Origin: Marchantia polymorpha subsp. ruderalis
Taxonomy: Eukaryota; Streptophyta; Marchantiopsida; Marchantiales; Marchantiaceae
Length of the DNA: 64,000 nucleotides
Direction of reading: 5' to 3'
Assembly: GCA_037833965.1 (NCBI GenBank)
Contig: AP031356.1
Location: 14,344,501-14,408,500 of the forward strand
Shown one piece after another: positions 19,991-61,911 of the stretch. The position numbers and the translations under genes are program-made. The notes beneath the pieces are model-generated. The model was given only the letters and a program-made list of their open reading frames with translations, had not been told where the DNA came from and ran no database searches. How positions within the stretch are numbered: position 1 is the first letter of the stretch; each line of letters begins with the position of its first letter.

Positions 19991-20042
19991 AAAATTTTTT
20001 AAAATTTGTTTTACTTTTTTATTCACTCAAGAAATTCCCAAC

Positions 20043-20278: not shown

Positions 20279-20283
20279 ATAGC

Positions 20284-37420: not shown

Positions 37421-38469
37421 TACCAAGTTCTTCAATTTACTCTAGATTGGGGATGGAATCCGAAACTGAACTCTCTTTTGCTCAAGGGATCTAGATCTCT
37501 GCCGTTTGAATCCTGTACGCTGCAAATTGTCCATACTTGATGATTGCGACTGATCCCAGATCACAATAAGTGCAGTATTTGAAGTGAGTGGGCGAAAGAA
37601 TGACAAAATCTCCTGTTCCATCTCGTCTACCAGAAAAGCACTTACAATTTTGTTGTAAGTTACAACCTTGTTATCACAATGAAGGAGAATGACAAAATCA
37701 GTAGGAATCAGTAAAAATCTTTGACAATGTAAGGTAGGAGGAAGGCATTGCGTGAAGGAGATGCATAGCTTTTCAATGTCAGAAAGCTCCTCTCCCATAC
37801 TCTAAAGATTTACCAACAAATCGCTGTAGGCGTGAATGTGATACTGAATTCTCGATACTGGTCTCATCTTGAAGTTCAACACCCTCATGTAGGTGTTCGT
37901 GACATGTGATATTTCTTTCTGATAAAAACGTCTTTGTAGTGCATCAAAAAGTTGTGTAACCTTAGAATACTCCTCAACTTGCTTCATAATTGAAGTATCT
38001 AGATAACCCATCACAATGTATACTGCTTGCTCTTGTGAATCCCTCCAATCAATGTTAGCAATGTGCATTGGTTTGTCTCTAAGCACATTAGCGAGACCCA
38101 TAGATCTTAGCTTGCTTTTCACTTGTTTTTCCAAAGCAGTTAATCAACTCGGCCATCAAGAGGAAAAATGTTGTACCATGTTTTTCCTACTTGTTTCGAT
38201 GCCATCCTAGTTTGACAAAAACTAGAGACGTCTGCTACCACGTCAATTTTGTCATTCGGATGCGTTTTCAGCTTTTGAAAATGATAAAATGCACTATTCG
38301 TGTCAAAAGTTTTCCAACAATAACCAATTTGCGTATATTCCAATAAAGAGTGTTGGATACAAAATATGCACAAACAAAATATTTCACTAACAGTACAAAA
38401 TCTTTTGCGACAAGAATTTGCAGGATAAAAACCGGTTTGGCTTGAACAACCCGCATAAGTGAAATTTCA

Positions 38470-38720
38470 CCTGCAACCACCGTCGCCCGTGATTCAACGT
38501 TCGTAACCCGCGACTTCCGTCCTCCGTGACCACTGTCATCCGCGATTGAAAAAACCGTCACGTGCGACTCCTGTCGCTCGTGATCAATGTCGCCCGCGAC
38601 TGTTGTTGCACGCGATCATTGTTGCCCAAGACCTGCACCATTACCGTTAGGACTGTTACTGGCACATGCGTTATCGCCAGAGCTGTCACCGGCGAGCACG
38701 TTTTTTGTTGACCACGTTTT
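38470..38720. repeat. Degenerate short tandem repeat in the Copia leader
   Basis: The words GTCGCCCGCGAC / GTCATCCGCGATT recur with spacing near 20-40 bp between the upstream LTR and Gag. This is leader sequence of the fossil. Confidence 0.5.
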
Positions 38721-38962
38721 CCCTGAGATCACCACGTCAACCGTGACTACGGTATACCAATCACGTACGAGTGCGAGCACATGACTATAACCACATGGAC
38801 TGCTACCACGAGCAAAATTCTGAAACTGAAAAAAAATTTGAAAATTTCTTCTATTAACAAACTTTCAGAAAGTAAAACAAGTTTTTCACTGTATGTGTAA
38901 GTGAAAGAACACCAAACAAAAACCTGAATACTATTCCGAATCGTAAGCCCACTGTGATACCA

Positions 38963-39207
38963 TTTCTTAAACGTAAAACCAAACGTGACTCAAGCCAAGC
39001 ACAAACACAGGAGACACTCATATAACGTGGTTCAGCCTGGGGGCTACGTCCACGGCTACAGCGCACGAGGTGATTTACTGACAATTGAATACTGAATGCA
39101 CATCCGAGTAGAAACTTTGGGGTATATTTATACCCAAAGTCAGCAACACACCTAGCGATAAATAGCTATAACCTTAGGTTACTCTTTGACCGGCGTTAAC
39201 CTCAACA
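38963..39207 (-). repeat. Copia 5' LTR
   Basis: 245 bp, followed on the - strand directly by the TGGTATCA primer-binding site, which fixes the element's orientation. Confidence 0.88.
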
Positions 39208-40299
39208 TTTTTGATTTTTTTTTAATTTGTACAAAAATGTAAGAATTGGTATGAAATTTTTAACTGAACATGATTGTTTGAATTAATCTTTTGATTGCAT
39301 GCCACACAACTGAAACATTTTAGAAAGAAAATTATGTATATAGCTTGCTTTTGCTTAACATTGGAAAGAACAAGTGAAAAAAACACTTGTGAACATATAT
39401 TATGCATTAATTCATCAAAGATGTTAAAAATATATGAATATTGTAATGTATCAAGTTATTCTAAGCTGATTCAATGAATCTATTTAGAAAACATGAAATT
39501 TTGATCCAGATATTTGTAGTTATATCTATTGGAATTTTCTTTTACACGTTTTAAGGTTTTAGTGTAATACTAAAAGATGAAGTTGTTGACATGAGAGTCT
39601 TAGTATAAGACCAATAACATATGACAACATGTTTAATTCGATTTGGACACTTGGCCAGGTTTATTAATAGTACATCTATAACGTCAACCATCGTAGATAA
39701 TGTAAGTATTCACTCATTTCAAGTTGCTTAAATATTATGAAGTCATTTCTTTAAAACGAATCACTATATGAACATGCTCTTACAATTATAATTGATCCTT
39801 TTTGACAAAAGTATTACGAAAAAAAATATTCGCATACATTCTTGTATCTTTTATGATCTCAAAATATCTATCAACTGAAGCAACCAAAATAATTGACTTT
39901 AACCAGGACATAAAATTACATTACTGACTCTTCATTAGTCATTCATGACCTGATATGTTATAGAGAAATGTTGGATAAACTTAGATGATCATAACAACCT
40001 CCAAGCAGTGGTGTTTAACATATCTCTATGTGTAAAATCATGAGTAGAAAAGAGGAAGAAAATGAAAAATCTGAAATTAGGATAAGACATATGGTGTGAG
40101 TTTTATATATTTTTAAAAAAACAGACAAACTCACGAAGTACATAAAGGAGGGGTATTTAATATATTTTTTTGTTAGTTGGAATTGATGTTAATGCACATG
40201 TCTTTGTTAATACGTTTTGCAACATAACAAGTAAAATAGTATTTAGAGTTAAGAATATCCCTTAAGTAGCTAATATACTTTAGGGCTCGAGTAGTTTAA
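39208..40299. other. AT-rich intergenic DNA between the Copia fossil and the channel gene
   Basis: No gene is seen. Positions 39,229-39,285 resemble 32,810-32,865 on the other side of the Copia element, in the same orientation. Confidence 0.5.
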
Positions 40300-40908: not shown

Positions 40909-42197
40909 TCAAGGTTCTTCTGCTTCTGCTGGGACGATCTGCTGCGCCTCGGGTGTGGATGTTGTTGTTGTTGTTGGCGACTGGAGCAGCAATGGCACTG
41001 GAGTAGCAGCAGCAGGAGCAGCGCAGGCAGACGAGGACGAAGAAGACGAGGACGAAAACGAGACGGCTGCTCCTCCATGGCCATGTTCAGAAGAAGAAGG
41101 ACCAGGAGCATCATCACGTGATGGTTCTGCCACGGCCCCTTGTGTCAGCAGCAGCGGAGGAGGGTCCGAGGAGGAGGAGGAGGGAGGCTCTTCGTCTCTG
41201 CCTCGCCTCCTCCTCTGCAGAAAGCCCCGAACGAGGCCCTGGATCATGACGGCCGCTCCTTCCTCGTAGATGCTGTGAATCTCTCGCTCTCGCTCTATGC
41301 GCACCGGGAGCTCCAGACCCTGCACACAATTTTCGGCCGTCCAGAACGAGGCTAGCTGTATTAGCTAATATTAGGACCTCCCATCCCCTCCCTTCCCCAC
41401 TCCCCCAAAATCCCGATCCTTGCGGATCTTCTCGGTGCCATTTCGTCAGAAATTTGACCGAAATTTGAGCAGCATTTGGACATGGTGTCAAATGAAGTTG
41501 GAAATCTTGTCAACGAGGAGGAAGTCGAGCGAGCTCCCGTGGATTATTCGGTCCAGAGACACAAACCAGAACGTTTCAACCATAGCAAGGGCTACATAAA
41601 TGGATTGACTTCATCAGCGCAGGCTCCATCATGGTTGGCAAGTGACTAGATGACAGAGCACGTCAGATGGAGACCCCACGTTATCAGGCTGGGCGAGTTT
41701 CGTAAGAACCGCAGTTAGAGGACGACTTCAACATGCTCCTCAGAAGAAGGCATGGCAGTAAACGACGGAGGAGGTGGAATTGCACATACTCTGGGGCCAA
41801 TCTTGTACAGGCAGACGGTTTCGAGAAGAGGCCGGAAAGCAACCCCTTTTCCATCGCGAAAATGGTTGACTTCGAACACAATTCGCGTGTACCTGACAGA
41901 AGACGACGAGGGCGGTGACATCTGATGCTTGCCTGTCCCATTGCGTTGGTCGGACTGAATTGCAGTTGAGCTGAAGGCCCTACGACATGAACCAGCCTCG
42001 ACGAGCAAAAGCAAGAACACGACCAGTCTGATTCCATTCTGACGACGAGATCTGAACTGGTTTCGCAGATCTGTGACGCCTGAGGACGCGTCACACTCAC
42101 TCACCTCTTGAGAAACTGCGGTCCTCTCCCTCCCAAAGGTGGCCCCAGCTCGATGAAGAAGTCCTTCAGTTTATGTTGTCCCAAGTATCCCGTGCAT
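40909..42197 (-). CDS. Channel exons 22-24: C-terminal regulatory tail
   Basis: Exon 22 is 42,105-42,197, exon 23 is 41,790-41,892 and exon 24 is 40,909-41,319 with a TGA stop. Exons 21-22 join to form an EF-hand-like segment (DYDPRCTGYLGQHKL), matching the DPxATGxI stretch after IVS6 in animal Cav channels. Exon 23 contains a pre-IQ-like helix (VAFRPLLETVCLYKIG). Exon 24 carries an IQ motif (AAVMIQGLVRGFLQRRRR, about residues 1,967-1,984), the known calmodulin-binding type, then ~90 residues of Ser-, Pro- and Thr-rich low-complexity tail. Function of the tail in Ca2+/calmodulin feedback is inferred from the family. Confidence 0.88.
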
Positions 42198-45100
42198 CTG
42201 TTCCAGCTCCAAGAGTTGCAGCCAATGTTTCAATCAAACCCGTGTTCCAGGAAGAAAAGAAAGCCTTCATGGAGAGACATCTCATTAGAAGCTTTTATTA
42301 TCTGAAGTAAACTCCAGGATTGAGGTTTTATCTGAACACTTTGCGAAATGGAGAAGATGGAGCAAAGATGGCTGTCCAGTTCACGGAATGACATACGAGG
42401 ACCCACGTACTCATGAACGTACGTGCGAGACTAATCAACATGCATCCATAGCCACAACGCAAGAGAAATCCCAGCTGCTTGCCTACTTTAACACTAGAAT
42501 ACATTCTAGTATAGTCTGGGGCCATTCACTATTAACACTTTGTAAGTGATAATTCTCATGATGCATTCATCATATAAGTGTGCTTTTGGCCGATCCTGCT
42601 GATCAGCCGAAAAAAATGCTGATCGTGTTCAAATGCTTTGTAGATAACAACAGCCTATGCACCTTAATCTAACCAATACATCCTGTGTAAAATATAGAAT
42701 CCGTGTATGTAGTCTATTCCAGAGTATTTAGCTCAATTACCCGTAATGACTGAGGAACCTATACTAGTGAAGGATGGAAGTTCACAATTCGAGCCCATAT
42801 ATACACTCCGTAGACATATCATTTTTATTATAGTAGGTGAAAGTTGGAACCAAGAAGTGATGGTAGGGTATAAAGTAATAGCAGTAAAATGATTTCGAGA
42901 TTTTGAACTTCGTCATAACTCTGGATTGGCATGTATCTGTGTGTATTACCAGCAGTGTATTATGCTCTAGATTCTCATGGATTAGCCATAACTTGCTTTG
43001 AACCTCTCTCGGTTGGGCTACGAGTAACAATAGAGATATTTAGATATCACTCCGCATATTTGAAATGAAACAAAGTCAAGATTTAACGACAATGCTAACC
43101 CAAAGTCCAATCTTTCATCAAATTGCAAGATATGATGAATATATCATGAAAACTATCACTTACAAATTGTGGAGGTAATGCTTCATACTCAAATTCTTAA
43201 AATGGTGGCTTAACACATTAATTTAAAATTTGCTCAATATGTATCGAAGTTTCTCAAACTAATATTTATGATTTCAAGCAAAGATGATAATTATATATGA
43301 AAAGTTTAAAAAATCGGTTTTTATTTACCTAACGTAATTACTCTTAACCAAAAAATTAACATCTGACATAACATTTGTGACATGGAAATGTTAACGTCAT
43401 GTTCTGTTATGAGCTATATTGTTAATCACATCCTTCTTGCTTGAAATTGATTTCGTATACCAATCACCAATGATTCATTCAAACTATACATTACATCTTT
43501 TTCTTCTTATGTATCATCATATTTTTTATCCTGAGAATATATGAAGGTGTTAGAAGAGATTGTTATAATTCCAATATCATCATATAAGTTACAGCTGAAG
43601 GTTGTGGAGTGAATTAAAACAATTCCAAACTTTATTTTTGATCTACTCAATTCATAAATAAAAGATCAAGAATCGTAAGTTAATTCTTTATGGTCGCTTA
43701 CTTTGTTACATATTACATCAGAATCATATCTTCTGTGCAAATATTTTAACATATTGCAATTTCTGGATTAATTGTTATTATAATCGTTTCGTCACTTTTT
43801 CAATTCACATCAAATTTTACTTGACAATAGAGTCAAATTCTAAAATTGTACAACTTAAATATATATGGATATAGTTTCAAATATACATTCTCAACATATA
43901 AATGTGTAAATAAAGATACAAAATTAGACTGATTGAGCAAAATTAACATGGACTGAACTTTCGTTGTAAGGTGAATGTTTTCGTTGTTCATTCTTGTCTC
44001 ATGAGTTTTATTTCTTTGATGTATAATCACAATTGAAAACCTAACAATAATTTCTGCGTCCTTCAAAGTTACATGCAAACATTTTCACCTGTATAGCACG
44101 CAGCAGTAGTTTTATATCATTATTCAATGGCAAGGAGTCCTAGTCACTTCCAAATGGATTATTCTATCACATATCGTTGAATCATAGAAATTCAATTATC
44201 TAGTTCGAGAAATTTTTTAGATTAAACATGTTTTAGTACCTTAAGCATTGCCTTCAGGACTTTACCGTCAAAAAATAGCTTAGTATTCTTTATCTCTTTG
44301 TACTATATTTTTTTTCTCTACGATGCACGTCAAAACCAACATGTTGGTTGTAACTTTTTGCTAGTAACATGGTATGTTGCTTGTGCTCCAACACATGCAC
44401 ACCAATTATCTACAATCCCTCCTCTAATTCTGATCCAAACAAATATTGAGTTTGAAATTCGAAATCATTTCCACTCTACATACCTCGTACTAAAGTGAGG
44501 GTTGTACTGTTTCAAGTGAGACTTGCAAATTTAATCCAGATACCATATAACATACAAACTTCCCTCCAAACAAGAAAGTGGCACACCATGCTCCAATAAT
44601 AGCATTCTGTGCCAAAAAGTGACAGCATACTAGGCTAAAGTTCTAGCCAGGCATGCGCCAATTGTATTTTCCTCATATTACTGAACCTACATAACACATC
44701 CCCTCCGTGCACACGAGTACCAGAACAGCTTGAACATAGCAAGAATGAGAATGCGAAACGTAAACACAAAGCTTCATCAGCGCCTATCATGGAGAGCTCT
44801 GGATAAGAACCAATGACCAAAGTCACGAGTTTCTGTACTACTAGAGAGCAGCCAGGGCAAGCTGGGGGCAATCAGATTGGTGGCTTTGTTAGTTTCTTCG
44901 TATATCTTCTTCCTGTATCAGCTTATGAACAGGATAGCGTCCTTTGAACAAGCAAGGCGAGAGAAACATAACTCTGCAGTATGACTTTCAGAAGATGAAA
45001 TCTGTGTTCAGAAGATCACAAAGATGTGTCTGAAGGCTAACGGAAAGAAGATGCGAGTGCCAGCTTTTTACCTGGGGTCGTAATCGCTCTTCGACCACAG

Positions 45101-48100
45101 AGCTTGAAAAGCCATCACGTGATCTGGAGACAACAGAACTTCATCCCTGAGTAAGCCAAATGTAATAGTATCCAAAATCTGGGCGATGAAGATATTCGAA
45201 AATATGTAGGTCGTTACGATAACACAAACCAGGACGTAAATCAATCCTCCAACGGGAAATCCACAGTCGTCAGTAGTGTTTGAATCAGTATGCAGGCACT
45301 GCGGGCTAGTAACTCTCAGATCTATTAAGAAGCAAGACCAGTCGTCCAGAGTCGTTATCTGCTCGAAGACAGAACACAAGAAGTCAGCCAAACTAGTCGC
45401 AGAGCCACCCAGACACCAAACCACAAAGCCAGTCCGGAGTAACTTGCAGCAACATTCACCGAGAACGGTATCACACGAACTCAGTGCTGAAGTCAGTTGT
45501 TGCCAAGGGTGTGTGTGCAGAGAGGCTGACAGGACGATCATGGTACATACCTGAAGCAAGATGAGGAAAGAACCACTGAAGTCTCTGAAGTCCCTGGTAT
45601 GTTTCTCTATGCACACCCCGTTTCTTATGTTCCAGAAGACGAAATTCCCCATTGAGGCGAAGAAACAGAGAAAAATGCCCATCAACGACATGATGTTCAC
45701 CATAGCCGGAAAACTGATGAGAACTGTACTCATCATGTGATTCAAAGTTGGTAAATAACGAATCACACGAAAGATCCTTACTATCGTAAAAAATGCTCCC
45801 GTAAAATACCTTTTCTTATTGGTACCGGGATATAAGCAACTCGCGGATATGATAGCCATACACAACTCCATGACATTCCACTTGTCGTCCCACCAATCTC
45901 TGAACTGCAAACATGTTCAAATAGACAAACAGATAAACCATCAACGCTCATAGGCGGAGTTAGATAAATCATAGAAGCCAGAAGAGCAACTGGTATAGTT
46001 GCACGGTGGAGCTCTCGCACCGATTGGTCTCCCCACACAGAACTACAACAAATGCACCGCTGTTTAAAATCCGCCCTTAGATCCAACACAAACGGACCTG
46101 ACTAATAAACTTCATGAGAAGCACCACAGTGGCGATTTCCATACCGACCGCAAAGAAAGAGATGAAAGTTCTCACCTGGGTGCCAACAAGCTTCATTATA
46201 GCCTCCACGATATAAAGACACACGAACATGACTTCGATAACTTGGTATCCCCCACGATTCTCAGTCAATAACAAGGGAACTTTTTCATTCGAACCAACTT
46301 GTACTGTTGTCAGGTATAGAAAATTGACCATGACTACGAAGACCAACAGAAGTTCAAACTTCCTATTGTAGACAGCTTGGAAGCATAAGCGGCGAACTCC
46401 GTAAGTAGGAAAAATTATAGGTACACGCTTGGGTCTCAAGCCTTGAATCAGGCGGTTGGTGTCTCGCCACAACTTCTGCCTTTCAGTCAGCAATTTGCGC
46501 CCTGAGATGATTCCAAACTGATCAATAAAAACACCCACAAACATTCGTAGGATGAAAAAACCTCCGATGCAGACGAAGGAGACGAAATATATGGCATGTG
46601 AGGGACTTTGATTCCGACGAGGTTGGAGCCCGATTTTGTGACCCAAGTCCATTGCGGGATATAGAAACCTTGAAGGCCAGCTGTCGAATGTGGACACCAC
46701 GAACAGTGATAACATGGCGTTGCCAAAGTTATCGAAGTTAAAGTCCTGATTCATCCATGTGCGCGGCGCCATGATTCCAACATCGTTCCGGAAAATGCCA
46801 ACACAATCCAAGTGGCTCTCGGCATCCGGGTCTGAACAAAAACGAAATCGATCTGCATAAAGTTGTAGACCGATTACCGCGTAGATTGCATACACAACAA
46901 GTGTGAAAAGGAAAACCTGGGAAATGGCGGGAATAGTCTTCACAATATAAAGACATAAATTCCTTAGGCCTGCAAATCGAGCGATCAATCGAAAAGGCCG
47001 AACTGTCATCAAACATCGAGCCGCTAAATCAAAAGTCGGTCGCGATCCGCCATCACTCCAATACATCCGTAGTCTAATTAGCGAAAACAACAAGTTCAAG
47101 AAGTCGATCAAGTTGAATGGATCTCCCAGATATGGTTCTGGTGTAAAAATTAAGCCGTAAGCAATCAGCTTGAAGAATAGATCAACTAGAAAAACCTGCA
47201 GCCATACAGGAGCCATGTAGATCCAACAGATAAGAAGCTAGAAAAATGGAAGATTACTGTACCTACGCGTGCGATCTCATTGGGATTAGAACTGAAACAA
47301 CTAATTCGAAGTTCGTTCACTGGACCTTTCATGCCTAAGCACTTAAATAAGATGTTGGAGAAGAGGTATACATTTTTTCTTATGGACTACCAGTCAATTT
47401 TATACATGACAAGCGGTATGTTGGCCGATTGAGATAGTGTTTAAAATAACTGCTATAACAATAGACGCTGTGAGTGATATACGAGGCGTCCTGGGTGTAG
47501 AAATGGAACAATTGTAGGTGGTCCGGATCGTCAGAGGCCATATATGACCCATGGAAGGAGACTTACGATAGAGTAAATTGAGATAGAATAAGAGGGCATG
47601 CGGAGTGCATATGCAAATCAGTTGGAAGAGTTGAGTGCTTCTACGATAGTCATCTGCTGAAGCAAATCGAGAGGAGCCAAGTGCAGATTGCAATAGGTAG
47701 AAGAACTGCATACTTTGCGAGAGCAAGAAAATTTATCAGTGGGCAACAGAAGGCAAGTGAAACGATACAAGAGTATGTTAATCATGGAAAGATGGAACGA
47801 GAGAAATGATGATCTAGTACATTTTTAAGGGTGGAGCAAGCTGATACAAAGCAAGGAATGAACGTCAATGTTTCTACAAAACAATGTACTGGTGGAAGTA
47901 AGCAAGCATGGTATTGGAATGATATATTTTAGAAACTGTACGAGGATTGAGAACTAGTAGAGCCTTAGACGAGAGGCCTTATTCAAAACAGGAGAAATAC
48001 TGAACTAAAACATCTGGATGAAGGCTACTTCTCGAACCTAGTCGTTGTAAGTACATCTACCATTACGAACATTACAAAGGCAGTTGTGTGAGGAGATAAC

Positions 48101-51100
48101 AGTTGTCTGAGATGTGACCTTATAGATCTGAATATCAAGAGCAGCGCCAAACTGACATCGTTGAACCCTGAAACTGAGTGTTTAAAGAATGAAGACAGGA
48201 ACCCTGTCATCGAAACATATTGCAGCCCTAACGGGCTGCAATATGTTCCGATGAAAAGCATCTGAAAAGCATCTTAAGATCCAGGGTATTCCGAAGGCCA
48301 GATCAGTTAGCTTGTTATTCATGAACACCTTAAAATTCAAGACGACAACATCACCGATGCTCAAGAAAGCAAACCTTGAAATGAAGGAGCAGAAAATGGG
48401 TAAAGATCATGACATAATGAGGGAATGAACCTTATAAAGCAAGCTAGAGCGAAAGCGGAAGGTGTGTTAGCAGACCTGGGGCATTCGGTCCTGAGTTTAG
48501 CCTCAGGACAAAAGATTCCAACAACAGAAGGGATTGCCACACCCAAAGGGGATCATCAAAGTACAGGTATGTAGTGATAACGACAACTTACAGCAGCATG
48601 CCCATATTCTGAATAATTAATCCAATTATCGAGATATGGTCCCATCGGAGATTGCCGTATCAGCGCGTAAACACCCAGAAATATCCATAAGCACTCCCAA
48701 GCAAGGTAGACAGGGTGTTCAATTAACTTCGTGATAAAAACTCTAAAGACATTGTCTCGTTGAAATAGAAAAAGAGACCGACTGCTCAACCACCACGGCA
48801 CTACTTTTTCCACCACGGCCGGTGCTTCTTGAAATTCGGATAGGAGAAACGAAACTCCACGAACACTTCTCGTTCTTGAATATGCAGGATTCTTTGAGGT
48901 GGCGGGAGACTGTTCATCATTTTCTACTTGCTTCGAGATTGTAACTTTCTTCTTGTCAGCAGCTGCAACCAAAGCTTGATCATCTGCGATAGCTAACACT
49001 GCAGACTGCAATACAAATCTGTTTCCACCATTAACAGTTGCAGCCAAATTTGAGGCAGTATCTCCACTCCTCAGTAACGATCTATCCATTTCTTGGCTGC
49101 GGCTCCGCCTTATAAGTGGCTTGTCGATACCCGGATTCAAGCTACTCAAGCTGCTTCGCCGGCGAACTCTTGCTTTCGATTGAACATCCTCTTCGGAAGA
49201 AACTGATGTGTCAAGAGCTGAGTAGGAACTTCGTTTCGTTGAAACCTCTTGAGACATACTTACACCTTCGGGGCTGCTGGGTGTCTGGAAACTGTCGTCT
49301 ACTTCTTGTTGTTGCGGTACATCGGCCGTTTTTGAACTTGATACAGGAAGAATTGACTTACGCGATATCTTCAAGGAGCTCATCCGCCGCCTCACATCCT
49401 TGAGCCCCTTTTGGGCACCTTGAACAGCCCCAACAAGCCAGTCTGAACTCCGTTTCTCAGAGACCCCATGAAAATGCTTGGTTTGTAACCACTTCAGGTG
49501 TTCTCGCTGTTCAGTTAAGTGATCAAAATAGACAATACGTTAGAGATGTCATGAGAAAGGAGATATTTCTTGTTCTTTTCAGCACAAAGTAAGGCTGTTT
49601 CCCGTTGTGATATCGGTGAGCTCTTGTATTTCGATGTCTGCAAACTCTCCCGAGATTTCTTACTTGAGGAGCCCTGTACTGCCCGCTGGAGCTTAATCTA
49701 ATACGCAGCACACGGACATTCTTGATACGTAGTACAATTTTCCGGTGTTCTTGTCACACGAAAATTAAGGCTAGTAACATCACACACCACAAGAGCTAAA
49801 ACATGACGAACTTAAGGTGCTGGCTAAGTCAACTTCACATCGTACTTCTAAATACAGCGACTGAACTCTAGTTTGTTTGAAGCATCTCTATAGAAGCTAT
49901 TAATATTGAAGGTTGACGCTGTGTACGATCCCCTTACCTTTTGTAGGTGCTTTTTCTGATTGTCTGTCAGCTCCATTTCTTCCAAGATAGTCGCAATGAT
50001 TAGATTGAGGATCACATAAGCAGTTATCATGTAGTAAAAGATGAATATGAATGGGGAAACCCACCTGAGAAATGAAATATAGTCATATAATGATGGAGAA
50101 CAGGTCGCAAATTTTATATGGAAATTCCGATGAAGCTGCAACTCAAGAGCTCTCTACGACCAATCAAGAGTTAATAAAAGGTAGGACAATCCTAGTTATA
50201 GAGTATTTGCTAAACACGCTCTTTACACGAGATTGACGATGACTTACAGACTTTTCTTTGTTCTATTCAGAATACCATCACTTTCGGCGAATGCTTGGGA
50301 TTGTCGATGATACGATTAGTACTTTCCTTTGATCAAACCAGAGTCTATGTGCAGATTAAAGGAGTGGCCATTGAAGGCTTGTAGGCCTTTTCTAAGTTGT
50401 ATAATCAATAACTTTAAGTCAATGATAATCTAATTGACTTTTTATTACTATTGAATTATGCTAGGATTGTGAGACTTGCCTAGTGACTGTAAAGAGAGAT
50501 CACGATTTTTACTACATCCTCAGAATTTAATCTCTGTAGTTGAACTAAATCAATAACGTTAAGGGCAGAATTTTGCGGAAGCTACGACCTGGGCATTTTT
50601 ATACCCAAACGTCGCTCTCCTGAATATATCAGAGTCGACGAGTGGCGAAGTAACATAAGCAACAAAAACTGCTGCTCTGTGCAGTGTATCCATGGAGAGC
50701 TTCAGCTTGAAGATCGGTTTTGACAGATATTAAGATCCCGAAGGTTACAAGTTTTGATCTAATACGTACATCTAGGCCAACAGGCATCTCGAGTACATAT
50801 CCCGATAGGAGCTAGATACATCAGGGATGCAAATTCGGGAACTTCAGGCACGGATAATATAGCAACTAAGTTTCTAAAGTGGGGAAAGATGAAGGAAGAG
50901 GGGACTAGGTAGTTAGACAAAAGATTGACACCAATTACCTGTTTTTAACTCCGGGCCGCATTGCGGACCACATGTAATCCACCCAACTTTCGCCCGTAGT
51001 AACAATGAACCACAAAAGCATTGCTTGCAGGAAACTGTCGTGATTAGCACGAGGATAACCATCGTCAAACTCATCCATTTGACCACCCCATAGCTCCATA

Positions 51101-54100
51101 CTGAAGATGGAGAACATAATTATGACAATAAATAGAAAAAAGTATACACTCGCCAAAGCTCCCAAGCTCCTGAGGATAGACACCTGTTGCGGGCATGAAT
51201 ATGCTGTGTTACACAAAGTCACAACTATGAGACTATGAGGTTCAACGGAACAGCGTTATTATCTTCTGTAGGCTTCTATGCGATATCTGAGCAACATCCC
51301 ACGGTAGATTTGAAACTATCATGATGATCAGAGCACATTCACTTGTAATGTTGATTTTTTTTTTAAATTCTCATCAAAAGAATGAAAGATGAGAACGTGG
51401 CATAATTATATCAACTCGCCATTATTGTCTGATTGTCACCGCCTTTAGCCATCCGTTTGCTCCTTTTGACGTAAAACCAGCGCAGCATTCGGATCGGGGT
51501 GACGTTGACGAACTTCCGATGTGTTCCAGTATTCCAGCAAGAGATAATGACCACCAGAAGATCGATCACATTCATTTCTGTACATTCAATTAGTCTTACA
51601 TCAATACACGTATCAATATATGCTTTGTAATTCATTGTTTGTCTCTTAGTCTGCGGTCTTAAGGAGGACAAAATATGAAAACCACAAGGAGCTTAATATC
51701 GAGGTTAATACACTCTTGAAACCTCTCAAGGTATGGAGCCGATAAATAACAGTCCAAAAATACAAGCCGGCTAGTTGATGCATCATCGTAAATCGTACCT
51801 TCGTTGAAATGGGATGTGAAAGGAAACCAAGATGGCAACAACAGAGCGACTGGAACTTCTCGGTTGGGAGAAGGACTACGTGCAAATACAAATGCGTATA
51901 CACAGCTAAAATGTTGATGGAAAGTCTAAAAACAGGACTCTTGAGTAGATTTAAGAGTTAAAGAGGAAGCGCATTACTTTGCGGCGGGTGCAACGCGTGC
52001 ACGAACCGGTAGTATGGTTTTGGTGTTGTTCAGATTTGGAAGGAAAGTTTCCATTAACTGGAGTCTGAAGTCATGTCTTGTAGAATTAATGAAATGAACA
52101 TCATAAGCTCCTTCTCATGAACCAACGATAAACTTTAGCAATACACGCGTGCACAATTCCCTATAGTGGCCTGAAGACCACAAATTCTGCCCCTTGGTTA
52201 TAGCGTTCCTTTCATGTTACAAATGAAAGGAAGAATTGTTGAGGGAGGATGAAAAAGAATACGGGTCCTTGAGAGTGAGGACAGTCTCTCTTATAGATGT
52301 ATTTATCACCATAGTTCGAAGTTTCTAGGTCACAGCCAGGGAACTTTGACCAAAAGCAGTGACCTATTTGGTTCTGGGGCCCCACGAAACTGCCGCTCAA
52401 GACAACGGCAGTTCTGGGTTCTGGATGTGGGGAAACCGAAAGCTGCCAGTGGTCTTCTAAGTGCACATCCGGCTCAAACATCTGAGCAAAGTTTCGGAAT
52501 ATTGTGGCCTTCATTGTGACAAAGATAGTACAGACAACTATAAGCAACGAATCAATCGTCTACGTCAACAAGGGTTGCATGATGCAAGGTAGTCCACCAT
52601 CTTGCTCCTCTCTTGGTAGTTGAGAAAGATACATTGTGGAAGTTAAACATAAGCACTGTATTCAGTCAACAAATTCCTGAAGATACTGAATGAAGTTCCA
52701 CCCAAACTGTGCTCTTGGTGTTGTGCCGTAACTGCTGTATAAAAATCTACATGTTCCTACTAAGGGCGGCCTTCCATGCTCCTAATGAATTATCTGGCTG
52801 AGAGAGAAACTATGATCAACACAGCCTCAGGACTCCCCCGCTCCCCTATCTTGACAAGGTTAAAGATGGTCCCAAACATCCACATCAAGTGGAACAAACA
52901 AACAACGAACAATAGATTATGCAGGGCCGAATTATTATCAGAAGTTCCAGAATTAACAAAAAGAATGTCGCTAGACAACTCATAATAGGTACTGAAGCGA
53001 GTGAATGATGTGAAGATGTAACAGAAGGTCTTGAAAAGAAGAAAGACGACAGAAACATACAATTACTGAACTTTATTCCGAGAGGGCACAGAACATCTTG
53101 AAAAGGGTGTTACAGGGCTGACAGTCAATCCAGATCCCTTACTAGGCAACAACACCAAATTAGATGATAGCAGCCTTTCGCACAAGGATAGATGACAGCG
53201 CCATCAAACACGTTAGCAGAGGCTCATGGTCGTCCATGTCAAGTATCTGCAGCGCATTCGCAGTAGAAAAATATAGGAAAGACAGACTAAGGAACATCGG
53301 TTAAGGTTTGCAAAAAGCACAAGAACTCAGACTGGAATAAATGTGTGTATCCCTCTTATCAAATCCCTCCTAAAGAGAAGTTCTCGTAAACTTTCTCATT
53401 ACGGAATCTTTCCCCATGAATGTATATGCAAATTAATTTACGCTGCTGCAAGAAAGAGTCGAACATTCAAAGTTTAGAATAAAGTTTACTCATACTTTCA
53501 TCTACAAACCCAGGAAGGCCCGCTGCTAGAAAGCGCAAGATCAGCTCAGCAGCAAAGACTGCAATGAGAGCAATCTCCAGCTTATCTGATCTCTGTCAAG
53601 GTCAATAATTCCGAAGACTAGAAACATCATTTTCGCACAAAGCAGAAAGGCTGAAATTCCAAGTCTATGTATGTAGTCTACGCTACTCTTACACTAAGTG
53701 TAAACGTATTCATATCCAATCTAGTAAATCCTGGCTCACGTGTTAACTTTGCTCCTGACCCTTCTCCATTATCATCAGATAACTTTCGGACATGATGCAC
53801 AGCTGAATTCAGCTATCAATGATTCCTCCAGTACATTTTAACTTCTACTTGAGAACAGAGACCATTCCAATCGTCAAAACGTGCTTTCCAATTAGATCGA
53901 CGTATTACTATGTTCATGATATCGAAATCGAACTGAACTTGAAATTCTGTCCAGACTGAAACCAAAGAATGCTATCAAACAATGGTCCTATTCAGACACC
54001 CTGTTTGAAAGCCCGTCAGTTGGTACCAAATTGGTTCATGTAATTTGTCCATGGACTCCAACAGTGCTAAATTGGAGAAATATGCTCTTCGTGAGTTCGT

Positions 54101-57100
54101 AGAGTAAAGTCACATATTCAATAATGTCAGCTGACTCCACTAATCTGTAAATAGTTTGTTAAACGCTATAATTAGTTGTGGTCATCAGGATACGAACGGC
54201 GTCCGCGTGCCGAGAGGTCATATTCGCTTTCAAGGAACACAGAACTATCATGTTGAAGGACACAAGAAGTAGAACAGCATACTTGAACGCCTTGCTTTGC
54301 ACTATCGCCCAGCATTTAGCAGAAAATCTCTGCACATAATGGTGAGTTGTCATAGACACACTTTTTGCAGCGGTACGACCTAGGCGAGAGGCGCGGGAGA
54401 CGTTGCGGGACAGGCTGCGAGACAAGGATCGCGAAAGGGTTGGGTCATCGGGAAGTTTATCGGAGGAGTCTTCAGTTCCTAAAACAGCAAAGCTGCTGAT
54501 GTGTTTCAAGTAGGAACTGGACTCCTTCCAGTCGAAAGCTTTTGACATGGTTCTCTTCACCCTGGTGCTTTGGCGACTCAAAGCATAAGAAAAGTTGGTG
54601 CTCAGTCCGGCAGTCTTTCGCCTAAGTCGGTGCCTCCAGGTTAGCCTTGCATCATTGCTCAAGATAACCTCCTTCATCAAACTAGCCATTTGAAGTGCAT
54701 TGGCGAATGAGAATGCTTTGTCTCGTCGATACCTTCTCATCAAAGCCTACAAGCATGGCATTCCCTAGCAAGCTTTAGTAAAATCGAGTCAAGTATTGGA
54801 CCAGCATGTTATCACGATAATCTGATCTTTCCTTTTGAGGATGGAAAAAAATCACGAATCAGGTTTTACATCCTTTCAGACACACAGAAACGTTTGATAG
54901 ACATCCTGATGCCTGTGGATACCAGCAGAAAATAATTTCTTCACTCTGGGACAGGGAGAACAATATCAATGGAAAGGTTTCAGACAGGAAGGATACATTC
55001 AGTCTGGTCGGCCACAGGATCTAGTAATGAGAGAAACAAACAATCCATGTATGTATCTCTAGATCCTGACGACAGATTTAATCTAGTAATGTTTAGAAAG
55101 CAGCAATAGTTAAGGACTAGAGGCGATGATGAAATGCACAAGATAAGAGTAGCTAAGTTCAAAGAGAGAGGAGACGCAATGCGATCGGGAGGACACGTAT
55201 GGGTGATGAAAGTATGCTGCCGGAAAAAAACAATTAAAAAACAGCCAAGAAGTAAACAACGTCAACGAAGGAACAGTATAAATCCGCACAGTACTGATCA
55301 AAGTGCCTATGACACATCGATCCGAAACCGTTACATTGGCATCACACATGATCTCATCAGTGCCCAGATATGGTGTGAGCAAAGCAAACATTGTATCGAG
55401 CCAATGTCGTTAACCAGTGAAGCAAGTTCATTAGTAGTCGAAGTTAGTTGATTTCTTATCTCTTTCATGAGAAATATTGTCCACTATTTTTTGGCTGGCG
55501 AGAAGAGCATGCGATAAAACCTTTCAAGCACAACGCACCTGGTGTTCCTTTCTCACTCGTAAGAAGACACCACTAATGGTTGCCACAAAAACGTTGACCA
55601 TGAAATAGCTCCCAAAGATGACTAAGATAACAAAATATGTCTGCGTGCCTGTCACAGTTTTGATCAAGACCGAGGTGAAGATCTCCAAGTTAGAGTTCAT
55701 GATTGGAATTCATAATGAGATCTACGTCCTTATCGGACATTAAAAATGGTGGCAGAAACTGTAACCTCCCAGCACTGTTCGGCCGAACTGTTGGAACAGT
55801 ATTATATTAATAAAAACAACTACAGCAGCTTTATGCATGACAAGTCATCGATTGTTGAAGCTTTTATCTTTCTTCTATGCTTTTGTTAGGCGTAAGCGCA
55901 AAAGATTGCTCTCACACTCTCAGACCCAGAGCTAGTAAGAAGACAGACAGTGCAGTAAGCTCTGATACTCCATCTAGACTTATAGATTGTCTACTACATC
56001 CAAGGAATTTGTACAACTGAGCTCGACGAACGAAAAATAGCGGATGACGATACCAAGATATGCAGTTAAAACTCGAACCATATAGTAAACTAACATATTG
56101 GTAGCCGGTGAAGAGCATGTAAGGACACATCTAGTGTGTATCGTTAAAGCACGAATCGCCATGACCCTGTCCAGGAACAGTTCCTGTACACTTCGATCAT
56201 TGCAGGGATTCTAAGGGGACACAACAAGACATCGCTCAAGGTGCCCATCCTGGTGTCCAAGCAACTGGGCAAGAACCAGTAACCCCCGCTACAAGTTTTG
56301 TATTACCCAAGAGCAACCAGGGCGGACTCGGCGCCAACTGCTGAGTTAATCTGAGAACCTATTCCCGTTGTCTCTTGCCCCAGCAGCGGATGAATGCTCG
56401 ATTGATAATTGAGTATTGCATTCATTCCTATCTACATAAACGTCTCAGAGACTTTATGATGACTGAGTAGATATACACAGCGCTGCCTCAAAGGGACGTG
56501 GAATATATATACAACAGAAAGTGCGAACTTACTTTTTAATGCTGAGCTGTCGTTCGCCCACCTCATAATAAGAGACCACCCTTCAAATGTAAGAACCTGT
56601 GGAACCATCCGGTAAAATAGGTTCGATACATGACTTCCAAGTTTCTGAATAGCCATATGGAATTATATCTTGGTTGGGCAATTAGTTCACACTACAGGAC
56701 TTCATAAATGTCTTCCATTCAACGGAGGCGTAGAGAAGGAAATTTTTACGTTCACCATGGATTTTTGTGTGATACTCAATGATGCCTGTTAATGAATTGT
56801 TGACCTCTATTGGAAAAAACGTGACTAGGAAAAATTATTAGCTGATAATGATCGGCTTAGTCCTTCTACAAATCGTCATAACAGCAATACAGCCTCTATT
56901 TTTGGGTACCGTACGACCGAGTTTAAGGAACTGAACATAAAAGATCAACGAAGCGATACAGATATCTAGTTGAACAATAATACGTCCACACTATAACTGG
57001 CAAAGAACTCCAACCGCTGGATTTGAGTTAAAACCCAGTAGTGTCATCGGCCATTTCTTTCACCTTTCAGGCGAAACAATATACAATCTTTCAATTATGT

Positions 57101-60100
57101 ATTCCACTTTTGTTGAACATCAAGAAGAGGAATAAATCTTCACGTAACTGAGTTTTGCTGATTTTAACTCAACCAGTAACAGGAACTCTCGATGAACCAT
57201 TACCAAATCTAAGAATTAAAAGGTGGAGTAGTAGGAGACAGTTGAGTTGTGAAGTAGCTAGGTCTAGACTGTACTTAGGAAGGGAATAACTTCGAGTGCT
57301 TGACTACGTTCACATTCTTCCGTTTATGTGACAAACAGATTGTGCCTGTCAACAATAGATGAAACTCTGTTGATCAAATGTTGAGTACTAATCAGAGTGC
57401 TTTCATACATAATCGACCGACCTATTCCAACCTGGAAAACGATAAGGATGGATGCAGAAAAATTGTCAAAGTTGGTAGCTCCCCAATTTGGATTAGAGCG
57501 ATCCTGAAAGACAACACTTCAAACATGAGCGGTATATCAAATTTGCAGGCTTGGGTGATAGGAAGTAAACACTAGTGCTTCACAAAAGCTGATGAACTGG
57601 ATAGCTGTTGTAGATCTTAATTGATGAAGAGAGTCTGGGGGGAGTAAAATGTGAAGATTGCAGGGGGCGTGATCAAAGGCAGGATTATGGAGTAGGCTTT
57701 AAGAAGAGCACAAGCATACACTCCGTTACATGAGAAATTCCGCTGGTTTGCGTCAATCCAAACGGCTTGTGCGAATAAAAACTATAGAGCTACACGCGAG
57801 TCATAATCGGATGACGTGTAAGGATTGATGTACTGACCTTGCAGACCATAGCCGCGTCTGGGAGTTTATCACACGTATCTGCCCAGCCTATATACTCCCC
57901 TTGCGAGTCAGATATGCCTTCATAATAATTAATGCAAGCCCTTTCTGGAATACTTACTTCATTATCACTCTTCCTCACGCACCTACCAGGATCATGATCC
58001 AATTTCAGAGAAGAGATGCCCAGAAATGTATAAAGAACTGGAAGCGCTGGTGCACACAAGACTGTATTCAGATTTCGAGAGCAAGCCCTTTAGTGAACCC
58101 TTGTAATCCATTTAGAGGGACATGTTCAAAGCCTGCCCGAGACCAGATTCCGAACAGATTCCATCAATTTGGTAGAGGAACTTATAAATGTTTCTGTACA
58201 ACCAAGGTATATGAAAATGTTTGTATGAAGCTTCACCTGAAGTGAAAACTCCCACCAAAAAGTTGTGATCCAAGTAGTGCATAGAAGGATAGGAACATGA
58301 GTGTAAACATGATCACCGTTTCCAATGCACGGACACTCCGGCGAATTGCATCTAAGATCGCCTGTCAAGCAAGTTGCAGAAAACAGGGAATGTACTTAAG
58401 AAAAGAAACCCCAGTGGCCAATATGAATGTCGCCAGTATAAGTACAACTATTTGGTCCTTGCAACCGGGCCGACAGGAGCTTCAGCTTCTAGATTCGAAA
58501 ATAAACCACTCACTTAAACAACGAATATATGCCTGCAAACAAACGTCCCTACATACCATGATGAACTCACGGACAAGCACGACTTTACACGAAGGTGGAA
58601 TAGGGGTTTAAAAAACAGAGCTTCTCTTATGCATCATTTCAAGGACAAGTCTACAAAAAGATACAGATTATTTGTCTAGATCTTAACTGAGGATTAGAGC
58701 CCACCCGCACGTTATTTAACTGGAATTTAACGGCTGTAGCATAAAGACCATAGATCCCTGATTGGCGGGTGCTAACAAAGGATAAATTTCAGTTACTTCC
58801 CAGAAGCTAGCCTTCTCGATTGATAACTAATGAATACTCAAAACAGGCCTTCAAAACCTGATGTTTAGGTCGATCATGCATTGAGATTATGGTCAAAGTA
58901 CCAGGAAAAAAGAAAAGTAGCAACAGGCTTACAAATATATCTCCAACGAAAGAAAAGTGACGAAGAACCAGTAATCCTCGAAAAATGCGGAGTACTGCAA
59001 TGCGAAGCCACTTGTCTCCATTCATAATGTATGTCCTCACAATGTGGACCCTGATTGTACTTAAGCAGAACTCAAATCAACAATGGTAGACATTCACTTC
59101 CAAAAGGCAATTCGAACTTTCAAATCCATAAACCTAATCAATTGATGAATCTTAGTTTCACAAACTGATCATGGGAGCTAAGACATATGGCTGGCACCAT
59201 GAGAAATAAAGTGGAGCACAAAAATTACCAGGAATCCAAAACAATGATAAGGTCTAGTTTGTTGAAGCCATTTCGAAGATATGCATGCGGACCTTGGTAT
59301 AAACCTAACGTTAAGATCCGCCCAACACATTCGGCTCTGTGGTACGTTCGACAAAAGCAAAGTAAGTCAGAAGTTCGGCGTTCTTTGGAACGAAATGAAG
59401 GAAACTTAGCAACCAGCGTATGATCCAAATCAAGTCTGGAACTGGTATTGACATCACTACACATCCAGTACTAGTGACTCATGCTGCAAAATCTTCACTC
59501 TCTTATTCAATGTAGAAATATGCAATTGAATTCTTGGCAAAAGCATACGCTATCTTCCACCTATGAATTGCCAAAGTCGATGCTCTTTCAAACTAAGAGC
59601 GCATCTCGACTGTCTATGCATGTACTTCCCAATGGAAATTGTTCGTCTACATCAAGAACCTCGACTTAAAGAAGCTCGTACAATGAAAAACAACAGACAA
59701 TCCATTTAATGTGCTCCGGGTCATAGACGAGGCTTCCAATGAAGGGGGCTGTAAAGTACAGTAGTTTCCCTTACGTATAAACTGACGTAAGAATGACGTC
59801 TGCCACCATGACGGCGTCCATGCTGGGGTGAAAGGGGGTCACCCATTTGTGCTCAGCTTTCAATATCAGCACAAAGAAATGACCCAGAATGACACCAAGA
59901 AGGATGTACTCCGTTTTTCTTCACAACAATCAAGGGAACATGCTGGATTACTAATATCAAATAACGATACGACTTTTCGTTCCAGCATCCCAGTGACAGA
60001 GTTTGTCACGGCTTCGATATTGCGCGGCACTGTAATTGTCGAAAACGAAGGTAAAATGAAGAACTGTGATGAACAGCTAATCACCTTACAAATGTGGAGG

Positions 60101-61911
60101 ATACTGATTATATAGAGAAGTAAACAGCATCTTGCGAGTTGCACTCTCTATACTCATAAAGCCCAAGGCATAGCCTTCCAATGTCGCCCCAGTACCTATG
60201 AGGGAGGTCGAGGCCTTCTGTTTTATGACCTGCGTTAAACACAACAAGATAGAGAAATGAATTCAAGGTTGACAAGCATGTAATACACCTGCCCTGAATC
60301 TCCTGAAATTGACAGTTCCGGGAATACACAACGTGTACAAGTGGACGTTCTCAAATGTCAAGAGCTGACAGCAGAGAGAGAAAATGTACTTTTGAGTTCT
60401 TGGCATAGGCATAAGCTGTCTTCCACCTACGGAGTGCCGAAGTTTCCGATGCTTTCTTCTGTCCAGCGGAGGGACCTGAGGGCGAATCTTCCCTCTGCTT
60501 CACATCCCCAGGGTTGTCCTCTTTGCAAGGCATTTGCATCCTGGGGTTCGAATTCGTTATCGGTTAGGTAATAGAGCTTTGGAACTGGCACCGGAATAAA
60601 GTTATATCAAAGATTCTGCACTACTGTACCCAGCTCATGAACAAAATGGAACCTTTCGAACACATGTGGATCTAAGCTTTTCGACAATACACTTGTGGAT
60701 AGGGGACATCCCCTGGCGTGGATCTCCGAGGGTTGATGTCTATCCTTCTGCGAACAGCCCCTTGCGTACAAGATTGGGCAATGCGTTCTCTCCAGACATT
60801 TTGGAATTCAAAGGTGGGTAACAGGACATTCTTTCGGGAAACATGAATCCTATGCCAGTGGCTTGGTGCTGTGGCTGGGAGATAGGTGAGCGTCGTTTCT
60901 CCAAGGAAAAGTCCCTGCGCGTTCAAACTACGAAGTCCCGAGACATCTAGCGATAAAGTTTTCGGAAACCCTAAGGATTTGTATCCTAACGAACTTCCTG
61001 CGTCTCAAGCTATGAAATTTTCATAAAGAGAATAATGTTTCTAGGAGACTGTATTCGCCCATAGGGTTCACAAATGCATAGAGGTGTGTGCATTTGAGGT
61101 ATTCGGAAAGCAGCAAGACGAGAGAGACTACAGCATACTCCGGCTACAATGTTGAAACATCTACACACGGCTTCCCTTCAGAGGTCAATACCGTCGTCTC
61201 AGAAAAACGAACGAAAACAAACACTTGCAATATCAAAAAGGATGGGAAGGCAATTCAAACGATAAAAGGGAAAGTCAGAACAATTGACTTGGAAGGCTGC
61301 CTGAAAAATGCCATTCGGTACAGAACTATTAGGAGAAGACTCTACTTTACGAAAACGATTTTCGTGGACTGTATGACACATCTCATCACAGGCCCGCACC
61401 TGCCTGGATCGGAAGAACTTGAGGCACTAAAAGTTAAGGTACTCGTAGACTTTAGCTCGTTCGACGAGATTTCTTCGAGCACAGGCACTTCGCCACCTTT
61501 CCCAAGTGGTGACGAGGCCGAGACAATCTGAAGTGTTCCATGATCACCAGCATCATATCCAGATCTTCCCGCGCCCACAGTTCCACCGCTTTCTCCAGCT
61601 CCGAATTCACTGGTTATTTCACTTTCTTCTCCTGAAGCAGGCTGGGCTCTGTGTCCAACATTCAAATCAACTGGACAACTTTCGTCCTTCACTCCGCTGC
61701 TACTCTCAGTCTCATCTCCAGGTGTGAGAATTACACTAGGTTTAGCTGCAGTCTCAAGCTCGGGGATATCCATCGCAGATATTCCTTTTGTTATGCTATC
61801 GACAGCGTCCGATGTTTGATTCCCAAGTCCATCCACGAGTGCTTCACCGCTCAAGGCAATCTCCTCGGGCGGTGCCGACTCTTCCATTGATAAGTTACCT
61901 GACTCTGACAT
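40909..61911 (-). CDS. Four-domain voltage-gated cation channel (Ca2+ channel alpha-1-like), 24 coding exons
   Basis: This gene would encode a pore-forming membrane channel of the voltage-gated Ca2+/Na+ superfamily. I placed 24 exons by GT-AG sites. Their phases agree at all 23 junctions and the sum is 6,246 nt (2,081 aa), the usual size for a four-domain channel. Each of four repeats shows S1-S6, an S4 with spaced Arg/Lys, and a pore loop. The filter motifs are TFEGW (about E577), TGESW (E962), TFDSW (D1497) and TLDDW (D1789). An E/E/D/D filter points to Ca2+ rather than DEKA sodium or EEKE NALCN channels. The C-tail has an EF-hand-like segment and an IQ motif. The start ATG at 61,911 has an in-frame TGA 18 nt upstream. 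Filter, S4 and tail features are read directly. Ca2+ selectivity is inferred from the family. Splice sites near the N-terminus are the least certain. Confidence 0.93.
42198..45071 (-). other. Channel intron 21 (2.9 kb)
   Basis: This is the longest intron, lying between the exon ending after IVS6 and the EF-hand-like exon. It is very AT-rich over 42,800-44,300 and has no recognisable coding sequence. I saw no inverted ends or duplicated flanks that would mark a young transposon. Confidence 0.75.
45072..45904 (-). CDS. Channel exons 20-21: repeat IV S3 to S6
   Basis: Exon 20 (45,551-45,904) holds IVS3 (WNVMELCMAIIS), IVS4 (FTIVRIFRVIRYLPTLNHM) and S5 up to the pore helix. Exon 21 (45,072-45,358) starts at the filter ITTLDDW (about D1789) and runs through a turret, IVS6 and the proximal C-tail. 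The intervening 45,359-45,550 has GTATGT...GAGCAG borders and is 192 nt with no stop in the channel frame. I call it an intron because splicing it out gives the canonical spacing from the pore helix to the filter, while retention would insert 64 residues there. Confidence 0.9.
46176..49506 (-). CDS. Channel exons 18-19: II-III linker, repeat III, IVS1-S2
   Basis: Exon 18 (48,592-49,506) encodes a ~230-residue cytoplasmic linker followed by IIIS1. The linker has several basophilic kinase-type sites (RRRSS, RRSRS, RTRS). Exon 19 (46,176-47,195) is long and holds IIIS2 through IVS2 without an intron. It has S4 with RCLMTVRPFRLIAR, pore helix FNFDNFGNA, filter STFDSW (about D1497), and S6 ending in FVGVFIDQFG. 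A linker of ~50 residues then leads into IVS1. The exon 19 end was set at CAG|GTGAGA because it joins IVS2 directly to the IVS3 exon in frame. The open frame runs ~26 codons further into the intron but would insert sequence foreign to the family. Confidence 0.92.
49938..54746 (-). CDS. Channel exons 13-17: I-II linker and repeat II
   Basis: Exons are 54,194-54,746 (linker plus IIS1), 53,496-53,585 (IIS2), 51,440-51,577 (IIS3-S4), 50,939-51,203 (S5 to filter) and 49,938-50,064 (IIS6). The linker is basic and contains a small internal repeat, LSRSLSRSLSRNVSR, that looks like a string of kinase sites. IIS4 reads IRMLRWFYVKRSKRM. The filter TTGESW places Glu at about residue 962, and IIS6 reads YVILNLIIATILEEMEL. 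The exon 13 donor has two usable options four bases apart that pair with two acceptors of exon 14. Both keep frame and change only a few loop residues. Confidence 0.88.
51578..53495 (-). other. Channel intron 14 (1.9 kb)
   Basis: This intron separates IIS2 from IIS3 and is the second longest in the gene. No family member has coding sequence here. The short open frames inside it, such as the hydrophobic one near 52,790-53,060, do not resemble channel segments. Confidence 0.7.
55539..59918 (-). CDS. Channel exons 5-12: repeat I (S1-S6)
   Basis: Exons are 59,775-59,918 (S1), 59,229-59,336 (S2-S3), 58,933-59,050 (S4), 58,237-58,361 (S5), 57,838-57,982 (turret), 57,432-57,503 (pore helix, NFDNF), 56,533-56,596 (filter, TFEGW) and 55,539-55,648 (S6). 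S3 includes the family hallmark HAYLRNGFNKLDLIIV. S4 reads LRIAVLRIFRGLLVLRHF, with arginines at 3-5 residue spacing. The turret exon has six cysteines in about 50 residues, as in animal Ca2+ and Na+ channels where this loop is disulphide-bonded. The exon also contains a perfect internal donor (GAA|GTAAGT at 57,957). Confidence 0.9.
59500..59600 (-). repeat. Decayed copy of channel exon 3 inside intron 5
   Basis: About 75 bp of this stretch matches the 3' half of exon 3 (60,385-60,460) on the same strand. The exon reads ALRRWKTAYAYAKNSK and this copy reads LAIHRWKIAYAFAKNS. The similarity fades on both sides. It lies between the S1 and S2 exons, where an extra basic segment would not fit the fold, so I treat it as a relic of tandem duplication and not a used exon. 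Confidence 0.6.
60126..61911 (-). CDS. Channel exons 1-4: cytoplasmic N-terminus
   Basis: Exons are 61,443-61,911, 60,691-60,970, 60,390-60,540 and 60,126-60,229. They encode about 334 residues before repeat I. The first ~150 residues are acidic and rich in Ser, Gly and Glu, with no domain I recognise. Exon 3 carries a basic stretch (RRWKTAYAYAKNSK) and exon 4 runs into S1. The exon 1 donor and exon 2 acceptor were chosen because they keep frame. An alternative, stronger-looking donor (CAG|GTGCGG at 61,399) would break frame with exon 2 as drawn. Exon 3 is entered through an acceptor with a good CTAAC branch site 25 nt upstream. Confidence 0.7.

Follow-up and report, generated by a model that had tools for sequence, protein, structure and literature searches.

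Here we report the analysis of a gene for a four-domain channel of the voltage-gated calcium (Cav) type in a 64,000-base stretch of DNA containing 0 N, referred to below as the window. Channels of this kind are familiar from nerve, from muscle and from the flagella of algae. The gene lies on the minus strand, from a start codon at 61911 to a TGA stop codon ending at 40909, which agrees with the span of 40909-61911 and the orientation given in the initial annotation. That annotation put the gene at 24 exons and a length of about 2,081 residues, which was close; our final model has 23 exons, 6,030 bases and 2,009 residues. All joins are in phase, the only stop codon is the terminal one, 22 of the 22 introns (160 to 2,874 bases) begin with GT and end with AG, and the GC content is 0.469 in coding sequence versus 0.405 in introns. 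The earlier impression that the gene looks intact is supported. The features of the gene, with its domains I to IV (DI to DIV) and their segments S1 to S6, are as follows.

61400..61911, minus strand: exon 1, cytoplasmic N-terminus with the start codon; first methionine following a stop in the same frame, without homology
60390..60540, minus strand: exon 2, N-terminus; consistent phase, no homology, less certain
60105..60229, minus strand: exon 3, N-terminus and segment ahead of DI-S1; Cav likeness by eye, U12-type donor at its end
59919..60104, minus strand: intron 3, a phase 2 intron at DI-S1 with U12-type signals; donor GTATCCTC (7/8) and, at 11 nucleotides, branch site TCCCTTGAT (8/9)
59775..59918, minus strand: exon 4, DI S1 and start of S2; gene model, DI PDB alignment
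59229..59336, minus strand: exon 5, DI S2-S3; gene model, DI PDB alignment
58933..59050, minus strand: exon 6, DI S3-S4; gene model, DI PDB alignment
58237..58361, minus strand: exon 7, DI S4-S5 linker and S5; gene model, DI PDB alignment
57838..57982, minus strand: exon 8, DI turret with four cysteines; gene model, cysteine count
57432..57503, minus strand: exon 9, DI pore helix 1; gene model, DI PDB alignment
56533..56596, minus strand: exon 10, DI filter TFEGW; gene model, DI PDB alignment
55539..55648, minus strand: exon 11, DI S6; gene model, DI PDB alignment
54194..54746, minus strand: exon 12, I-II linker and DII S1; gene model, DII PDB alignment
53586..54193, minus strand: intron 12, U12-type signals, DII S1-S2; donor GTATCCTG (7/8) and, at 10 nucleotides, branch site GACCTTGAC (7/9), gapless protein alignment over the join
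53496..53585, minus strand: exon 13, DII S2; gene model, DII PDB alignment
51440..51577, minus strand: exon 14, DII S3-S4; gene model, DII PDB alignment, weak donor
50939..51203, minus strand: exon 15, DII S5, pore and filter TGESW; Pfam scan, gene model, DII PDB alignment
49938..50064, minus strand: exon 16, DII S6; Pfam scan, gene model, DII PDB alignment
48592..49506, minus strand: exon 17, II-III linker and DIII S1; whole-protein PDB match, gene model
46176..47195, minus strand: exon 18, DIII S2-S6 with filter TFDSW, III-IV linker and DIV S1-S2; PDB match of the open reading frame, gene model
45551..45904, minus strand: exon 19, DIV S3-S5 and pore helix 1; gene model, DIV PDB alignment
45072..45358, minus strand: exon 20, DIV filter TLDDW, turret, S6 and proximal C-terminus; gene model, DIV PDB alignment
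42105..42197, minus strand: exon 21, EF-hand-like segment with PPLG motif; aligned with Cav2.2
41790..41892, minus strand: exon 22, second EF/pre-IQ part (by eye); among the matches listed, only NALCN alignments extend through it (query to 392)
40909..41319, minus strand: exon 23, IQ motif, low-complexity tail and stop; IQ 15.0 bits, cutoff 20.3

The exons were joined by hand using splice-site strings, phase and resemblance to known channels. Plain reading of open reading frames (ORFs) is misleading in two places: the ORF 45916-45068 contains a 192-base intron (45550-45359) without an in-frame stop, and the ORF 47237-46077 overshoots the splice at 46176. Among the least certain parts of the model are exons 1 to 3, upstream of the point in exon 4 where the Ion_trans match begins, and the exon 14-to-15 join, which has a weak donor and leaves a linker that by our own count exceeds the one of Cav1.2 by five residues. 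Exon 3 was judged by eye to resemble the pre-S1 segment, and the best PDB alignments of DI begin downstream of the exon 3/4 join. A first automatic model (26 exons, 1,707 residues) left out large parts of the channel and was discarded; its hand-built successor (21 exons, 1,936 residues) was two N-terminal exons short and had another DII S1-S2 join, and it was replaced once the U12-type signals had been seen. The whole-protein search against PDB sequences was made with this 21-exon version, and parts of the final version (DI, DII, and DIV with the C-terminus) were searched separately. Intron 19 (45359-45550, 192 bp), if retained, would add 64 residues directly before the DIV filter, and intron 20 (42198-45071), the longest of the gene at 2.9 kb, is AT-rich and perhaps holds an old insertion.

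Four Pfam Ion_trans domains occur in one chain, with E-values of 9.7e-40, 1.1e-38, 1e-37 and 5.7e-26 for DI to DIV. The initial annotation had proposed a comparison with Cav1-3, Nav and NALCN; run against PDB sequences, it gave a best, collinear match to Cav1.2 (1.1e-102), followed by Cav3.2 (1.5e-97), Cav1.1 (1.7e-92), Nav1.7 (2.1e-89), Cav2.2 (1.1e-86) and NALCN (1.2e-70), which bears out the annotated channel type. The best match changes along the protein, being Cav2.2 for DI alone (4.4e-60), Cav1.2 for DII alone (1.5e-44) and Cav1.3 for the single ORF that spans DIII and the first part of DIV (1.6e-60). Identity to animal Cav1.2 amounts to 17/52 (33%) and 26/89 (29%) in two counted stretches.

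The selectivity ring reads E/E/D/D (TFEGW, TGESW, TFDSW and TLDDW in DI to DIV); it is acidic, contains no lysine, and differs from the EEEE or EDEE ring of the animal-like calcium filter class. An aspartate next to the ring residue (+1) in DII or DIV is described as a calcium-channel beacon, together with EEEE or EDEE (PMC10120453), and the gene has it in DIV. The plan given for the family of four-domain voltage-gated cation channels (FVCC) comprises turret cysteines in a 4-0-2-2 pattern, a tryptophan at ring +2 and a III-IV linker of about 53-57 residues (PMC6259924). Here the tryptophan is present in four of four domains, the turrets of DI to DIII contain 4, 0 and 2 cysteines, in keeping with that plan, and DIV has three cysteines after the filter, of which the turret holds two and the third comes right behind the filter, plus an extra one before it; the III-IV linker measures 52 residues by our own, uncertain helix borders. 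Each S4 helix carries at least three arginines or lysines by eye, fewer than in Cav1. The four repeats, S4 segments and pore loops are readable, as previously annotated. Behind DIV, the protein aligns with Cav2.2 across its PPLG motif, and weak Pfam matches fall below their cutoffs both for GPHH, a Cav family (17.5 bits, cutoff 26.8), and for the IQ motif.

Several of these observations weigh against a plain Cav assignment. DIV with the C-terminus is closest to a cockroach Nav (5x0m, 4.3e-31, versus 1.7e-28 for Cav2.2), and over the same part NALCN (4.1e-19) does as well as or better than the Cav1 chains (Cav1.2, 3.2e-19) and better than Cav3; among the DIV matches listed, NALCN alignments are the only ones that reach exon 22 and the IQ motif. 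In the whole-protein search several Nav channels rank above Cav2 and two Cav3 chains. The residue after the DII ring position is a serine, so that the DII filter lacks the aspartate beacon, and by eye some S4 charges of Cav channels are absent, in several domains. The missing S4 charges and the matches of DIV and the C-terminus would fit a leak channel like NALCN or Cch1 that is insensitive to voltage or passes sodium. We regard such a channel as very unlikely: for the DIII ORF every listed Cav and Nav channel scores above NALCN, and for the whole protein every one except Nav type 7 does; the ring has no lysine, each S4 has by eye at least three positive residues, and NALCN is described as lacking the U12 intron in DI-S1 (PMC6259924). 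By sequence comparison, the channel is Cav-like overall without clear membership in any animal subfamily, and over its last quarter Cav is not preferred to Nav. Since the best family varies by part and Nav and NALCN are strong in DIV, the gene looks like a deep branch outside Cav1, Cav2 and Cav3.

The open frame does not look like chance. Introns read in any frame contain 0.052 stops per codon, so that about 105 would be expected per 2,009 codons, compared with none in the joined frame; the comparison is partly circular, as exons were picked to be open. In simulations of random base change (300 trials each), the frame stayed free of stops in 35% of trials at 0.5% change, in 25 of 300 (8%) at 1% and in 1 of 300 (0.3%) at 2%. 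Given this frame and the retained marks of pore, cysteines and splicing, the gene is unlikely to have been dead for long. The sequence could also be a recently inactivated duplicate whose functional counterpart lies elsewhere in the genome, in line with the transposable element (TE) debris in its flanks and the weak donor of exon 14; we consider this highly improbable in view of the 2,009 stop-free codons, which few of the simulated genes retained at 1% or 2% change, and of the intact filter, cysteines and splice signals.

All 22 introns were scored against the U12 (minor spliceosome) donor RTATCCTT and branch site TTCCTTRAY, and two of them, introns 3 and 12, stand out with U12-type signals. 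In the remaining introns the donor score is at most 5, and a branch score of 7 occurs in introns 1, 6 and 16. On the minus strand of the window, a donor score of at least 7 is found at 28 of 3,791 GT sites, and branch scores of at least 8 and at least 7 at 34 and 299 of 3,811 AG sites; because introns 3 and 12 were chosen partly by motif, these background rates overstate the evidence somewhat. An ordinary join was also available for intron 12, and the U12 join was preferred since it closes a gap in the protein alignment. Intron 3, in phase 2, lies just ahead of the DI S1 core, its upstream side resting on likeness by eye. Both introns are GT-AG, whereas animal U12 examples in such channel genes are often AT-AC. 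In human SCN5A an exon border presumably falls at the same codon and phase as intron 3; of several animal DI splice positions compared, only that in DI-S1 agreed exactly, and the rest were left unused.

The position of the DI-S1 U12-type intron is that published for animal Cav and Nav genes, which have a U12 intron there in common (PMC6259924). Every human sodium and calcium channel alpha gene is reported to contain a minor intron, and minor introns to be conserved in position between land plants and animals more than major ones (PMC6865273). U12 introns are described as lacking in green algae (Chlamydomonas being tabulated) and in two diatoms, and as present in plants, animals and Phytophthora (PMC2846911). 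The U12-type signals thus argue against a chlorophyte or diatom source and leave streptophyte algae, land plants, oomycetes and animals.

The flanks of the gene are rich in TE remnants. A decayed Copia-type long terminal repeat (LTR) element occupies 32940-39212 on the minus strand, with gag and pre-integrase remnants in broken frames (Pfam Pol_BBD 6.9e-20, gag_pre-integrs 9.7e-15) and LTR-like repeats at 32940-33114 and 39039-39212 that are 86-88% alike. The window has five two-mismatch sites for a plant-type Copia primer, one of them (38962) beside an LTR-like repeat, too weak a signal for use. A hAT transposase remnant at 20284-21661, minus strand, retains the C-terminal dimerisation domain (Dimer_Tnp_hAT, 2.7e-13), and a second hAT-like ORF, seen by eye at 10625-11740, has no Pfam match above the cutoff. 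Adjoining tandem repeats have units of 301 bp (2.4 copies, 19280-19996) and 84 bp (about 3 copies, 20037-20299). The minus-strand ORF 25876-23009 encodes 955 residues; it is GC-rich with a coiled-coil-like C-terminal part, is possibly a lineage-specific repeat protein, and matched no Pfam or NCBIfam family beyond noise. Its C-terminal part may resemble repeat proteins of the liverwort Marchantia, a similarity that serves only as a lead.

No conserved cellular gene was found among the 22 ORFs scanned with Pfam out of 51 of at least 100 residues that lie wholly outside the channel gene; the only matches above cutoff were to transposons. NCBIfam gave one weak coiled-coil match for five ORFs, no tRNA was found in the window and no Rfam family at gathering scores, a viral contig collection had no match to the DIII exon or the Copia ORF, and a genome contig collection had none to the DIII exon. 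Copia and hAT elements occur outside plants too. The remnants of both fit a plant and partly sustain the plant-type repeat setting of the initial annotation, in which the label of a plant transposon protein lacks family support. Taking repeats and introns together, we infer that the host is probably an embryophyte, most likely a non-seed land plant; a liverwort is our first guess, an assumption that stems from the possible similarity to liverwort repeat proteins.

Alternatively, the host of the same gene could be a streptophyte alga or some other eukaryote where four-domain channels would be nothing unusual (a brown alga, oomycete or animal), or the contig could be a contaminant in a plant assembly. 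We hold this to be unlikely, though a serious alternative. The host evidence comes from repeats and introns only, and the 22 scanned ORFs of the 51 outside the gene place nothing. The introns of 0.16-2.9 kb and the TE-rich flanks are unlike the compact genes typical of oomycetes, the identities of 33% and 29% to Cav1.2 are too low for an animal Cav, and the U12-type introns speak against chlorophytes and diatoms. Brown algae and oomycetes are reported to have four-domain channels (PMC6259924), and Phytophthora to have U12 introns (PMC2846911).

Land plants are stated to lack four-domain voltage-gated channels (PMC5824947, PMC11085791, PMC6259924, PMC4030171), and this published absence makes a plant host less likely from the outset. 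The initial annotation had described the channels as absent from flowering plants; the absence is indeed reported, in wording that covers all land plants. No report of a four-domain channel in a land plant appeared among the listed titles and abstract openings of the open-licence literature, which is no proof of absence in print, and the gene may already be present, unremarked, in a public liverwort annotation.

Weighing these points, we think it likely that the window carries a single intact nuclear gene for a Cav-type pore-forming subunit of a non-seed land plant, with a presumed use in the sperm flagellum. In such a channel, membrane depolarisation would shift the four charged S4 helices, S6 would then open the pore, calcium and perhaps some sodium would pass the E/E/D/D ring topped by tryptophans, and calmodulin on the C-terminal EF/IQ part may tune gating. 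The sequence itself establishes the gene, its fold family, the filter residues and the U12-type intron signals; host, gating, ion selectivity and the place and time of use are inferences. The channel would most likely let calcium into the flagella of sperm as they swim, by analogy with Chlamydomonas CAV2, which is located in flagella in a report that lists plants as 'not identified' (PMC8318260). The flagellum is our best guess because the four-domain calcium channels of Paramecium and Chlamydomonas are described as restricted to cilia or flagella (PMC10120453). The same restriction counts against the idea that the intact channel serves mainly the slow calcium action potentials of the plant body and not sperm. 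Liverworts and characean algae do fire action potentials, whose channel proteins are described as an open question and whose molecular basis as the main one (PMC8067100); we nevertheless find this use rather unlikely.

As an evolutionary scenario, we somewhat favour the view that a seedless land plant kept both an intact channel and the DI-S1 U12-type intron, both of which would predate the animal-plant split and have been lost later within land plants. If the source is a land plant, the published view would be corrected and the loss moved to within land plants, the gene would be a testable candidate for the channel that lets calcium into plant sperm as they swim and for the one behind liverwort action potentials, and the common U12-type intron would trace the channels of plants and animals back to a single ancestral gene.

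Comparison with known channels sets the gene among several families. With the alpha-1 subunits of animal Cav1 and Cav2 it shares four ordered domains, the turret-cysteine plan and the DI-S1 U12-type intron, and apparently a short III-IV linker, the EF/PPLG segment and an IQ-like motif; it differs in about 30% identity over the counted stretches, an E/E/D/D instead of an EEEE ring, the missing DII beacon and a DIV that is not closest to Cav1. Animal Cav3 (T-type) channels have the same E/E/D/D ring, and Cav3.2 is the second family in the whole-protein search, but the gene lacks most of the extra turret cysteines, matches Cav3 poorly in DIV and has an IQ-like motif, which in Cav3 is described as replaced by another site (PMC10120453). 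NALCN and fungal Cch1 share the four-domain plan, and NALCN aligns furthest into the C-terminus, in contrast to its low whole-protein score and the DI-S1 intron that it is said to lack. Plant TPC1 is likewise voltage-gated, calcium-related and built of Ion_trans domains, but it has two domains only, and it was not among the PDB matches listed (at most 60 per search). Provided that the host is a plant, the counterparts within the green lineage would be Chlamydomonas CAV2 and other green-algal four-domain channels, with an assumed flagellar use in common; they are set apart, as described, by rings of EEEE in CAV2 and DDDD or TEND in others (PMC5824947), and by a genome in which no U12 intron was found (PMC2846911), as against the U12-type signals of the gene reported here.

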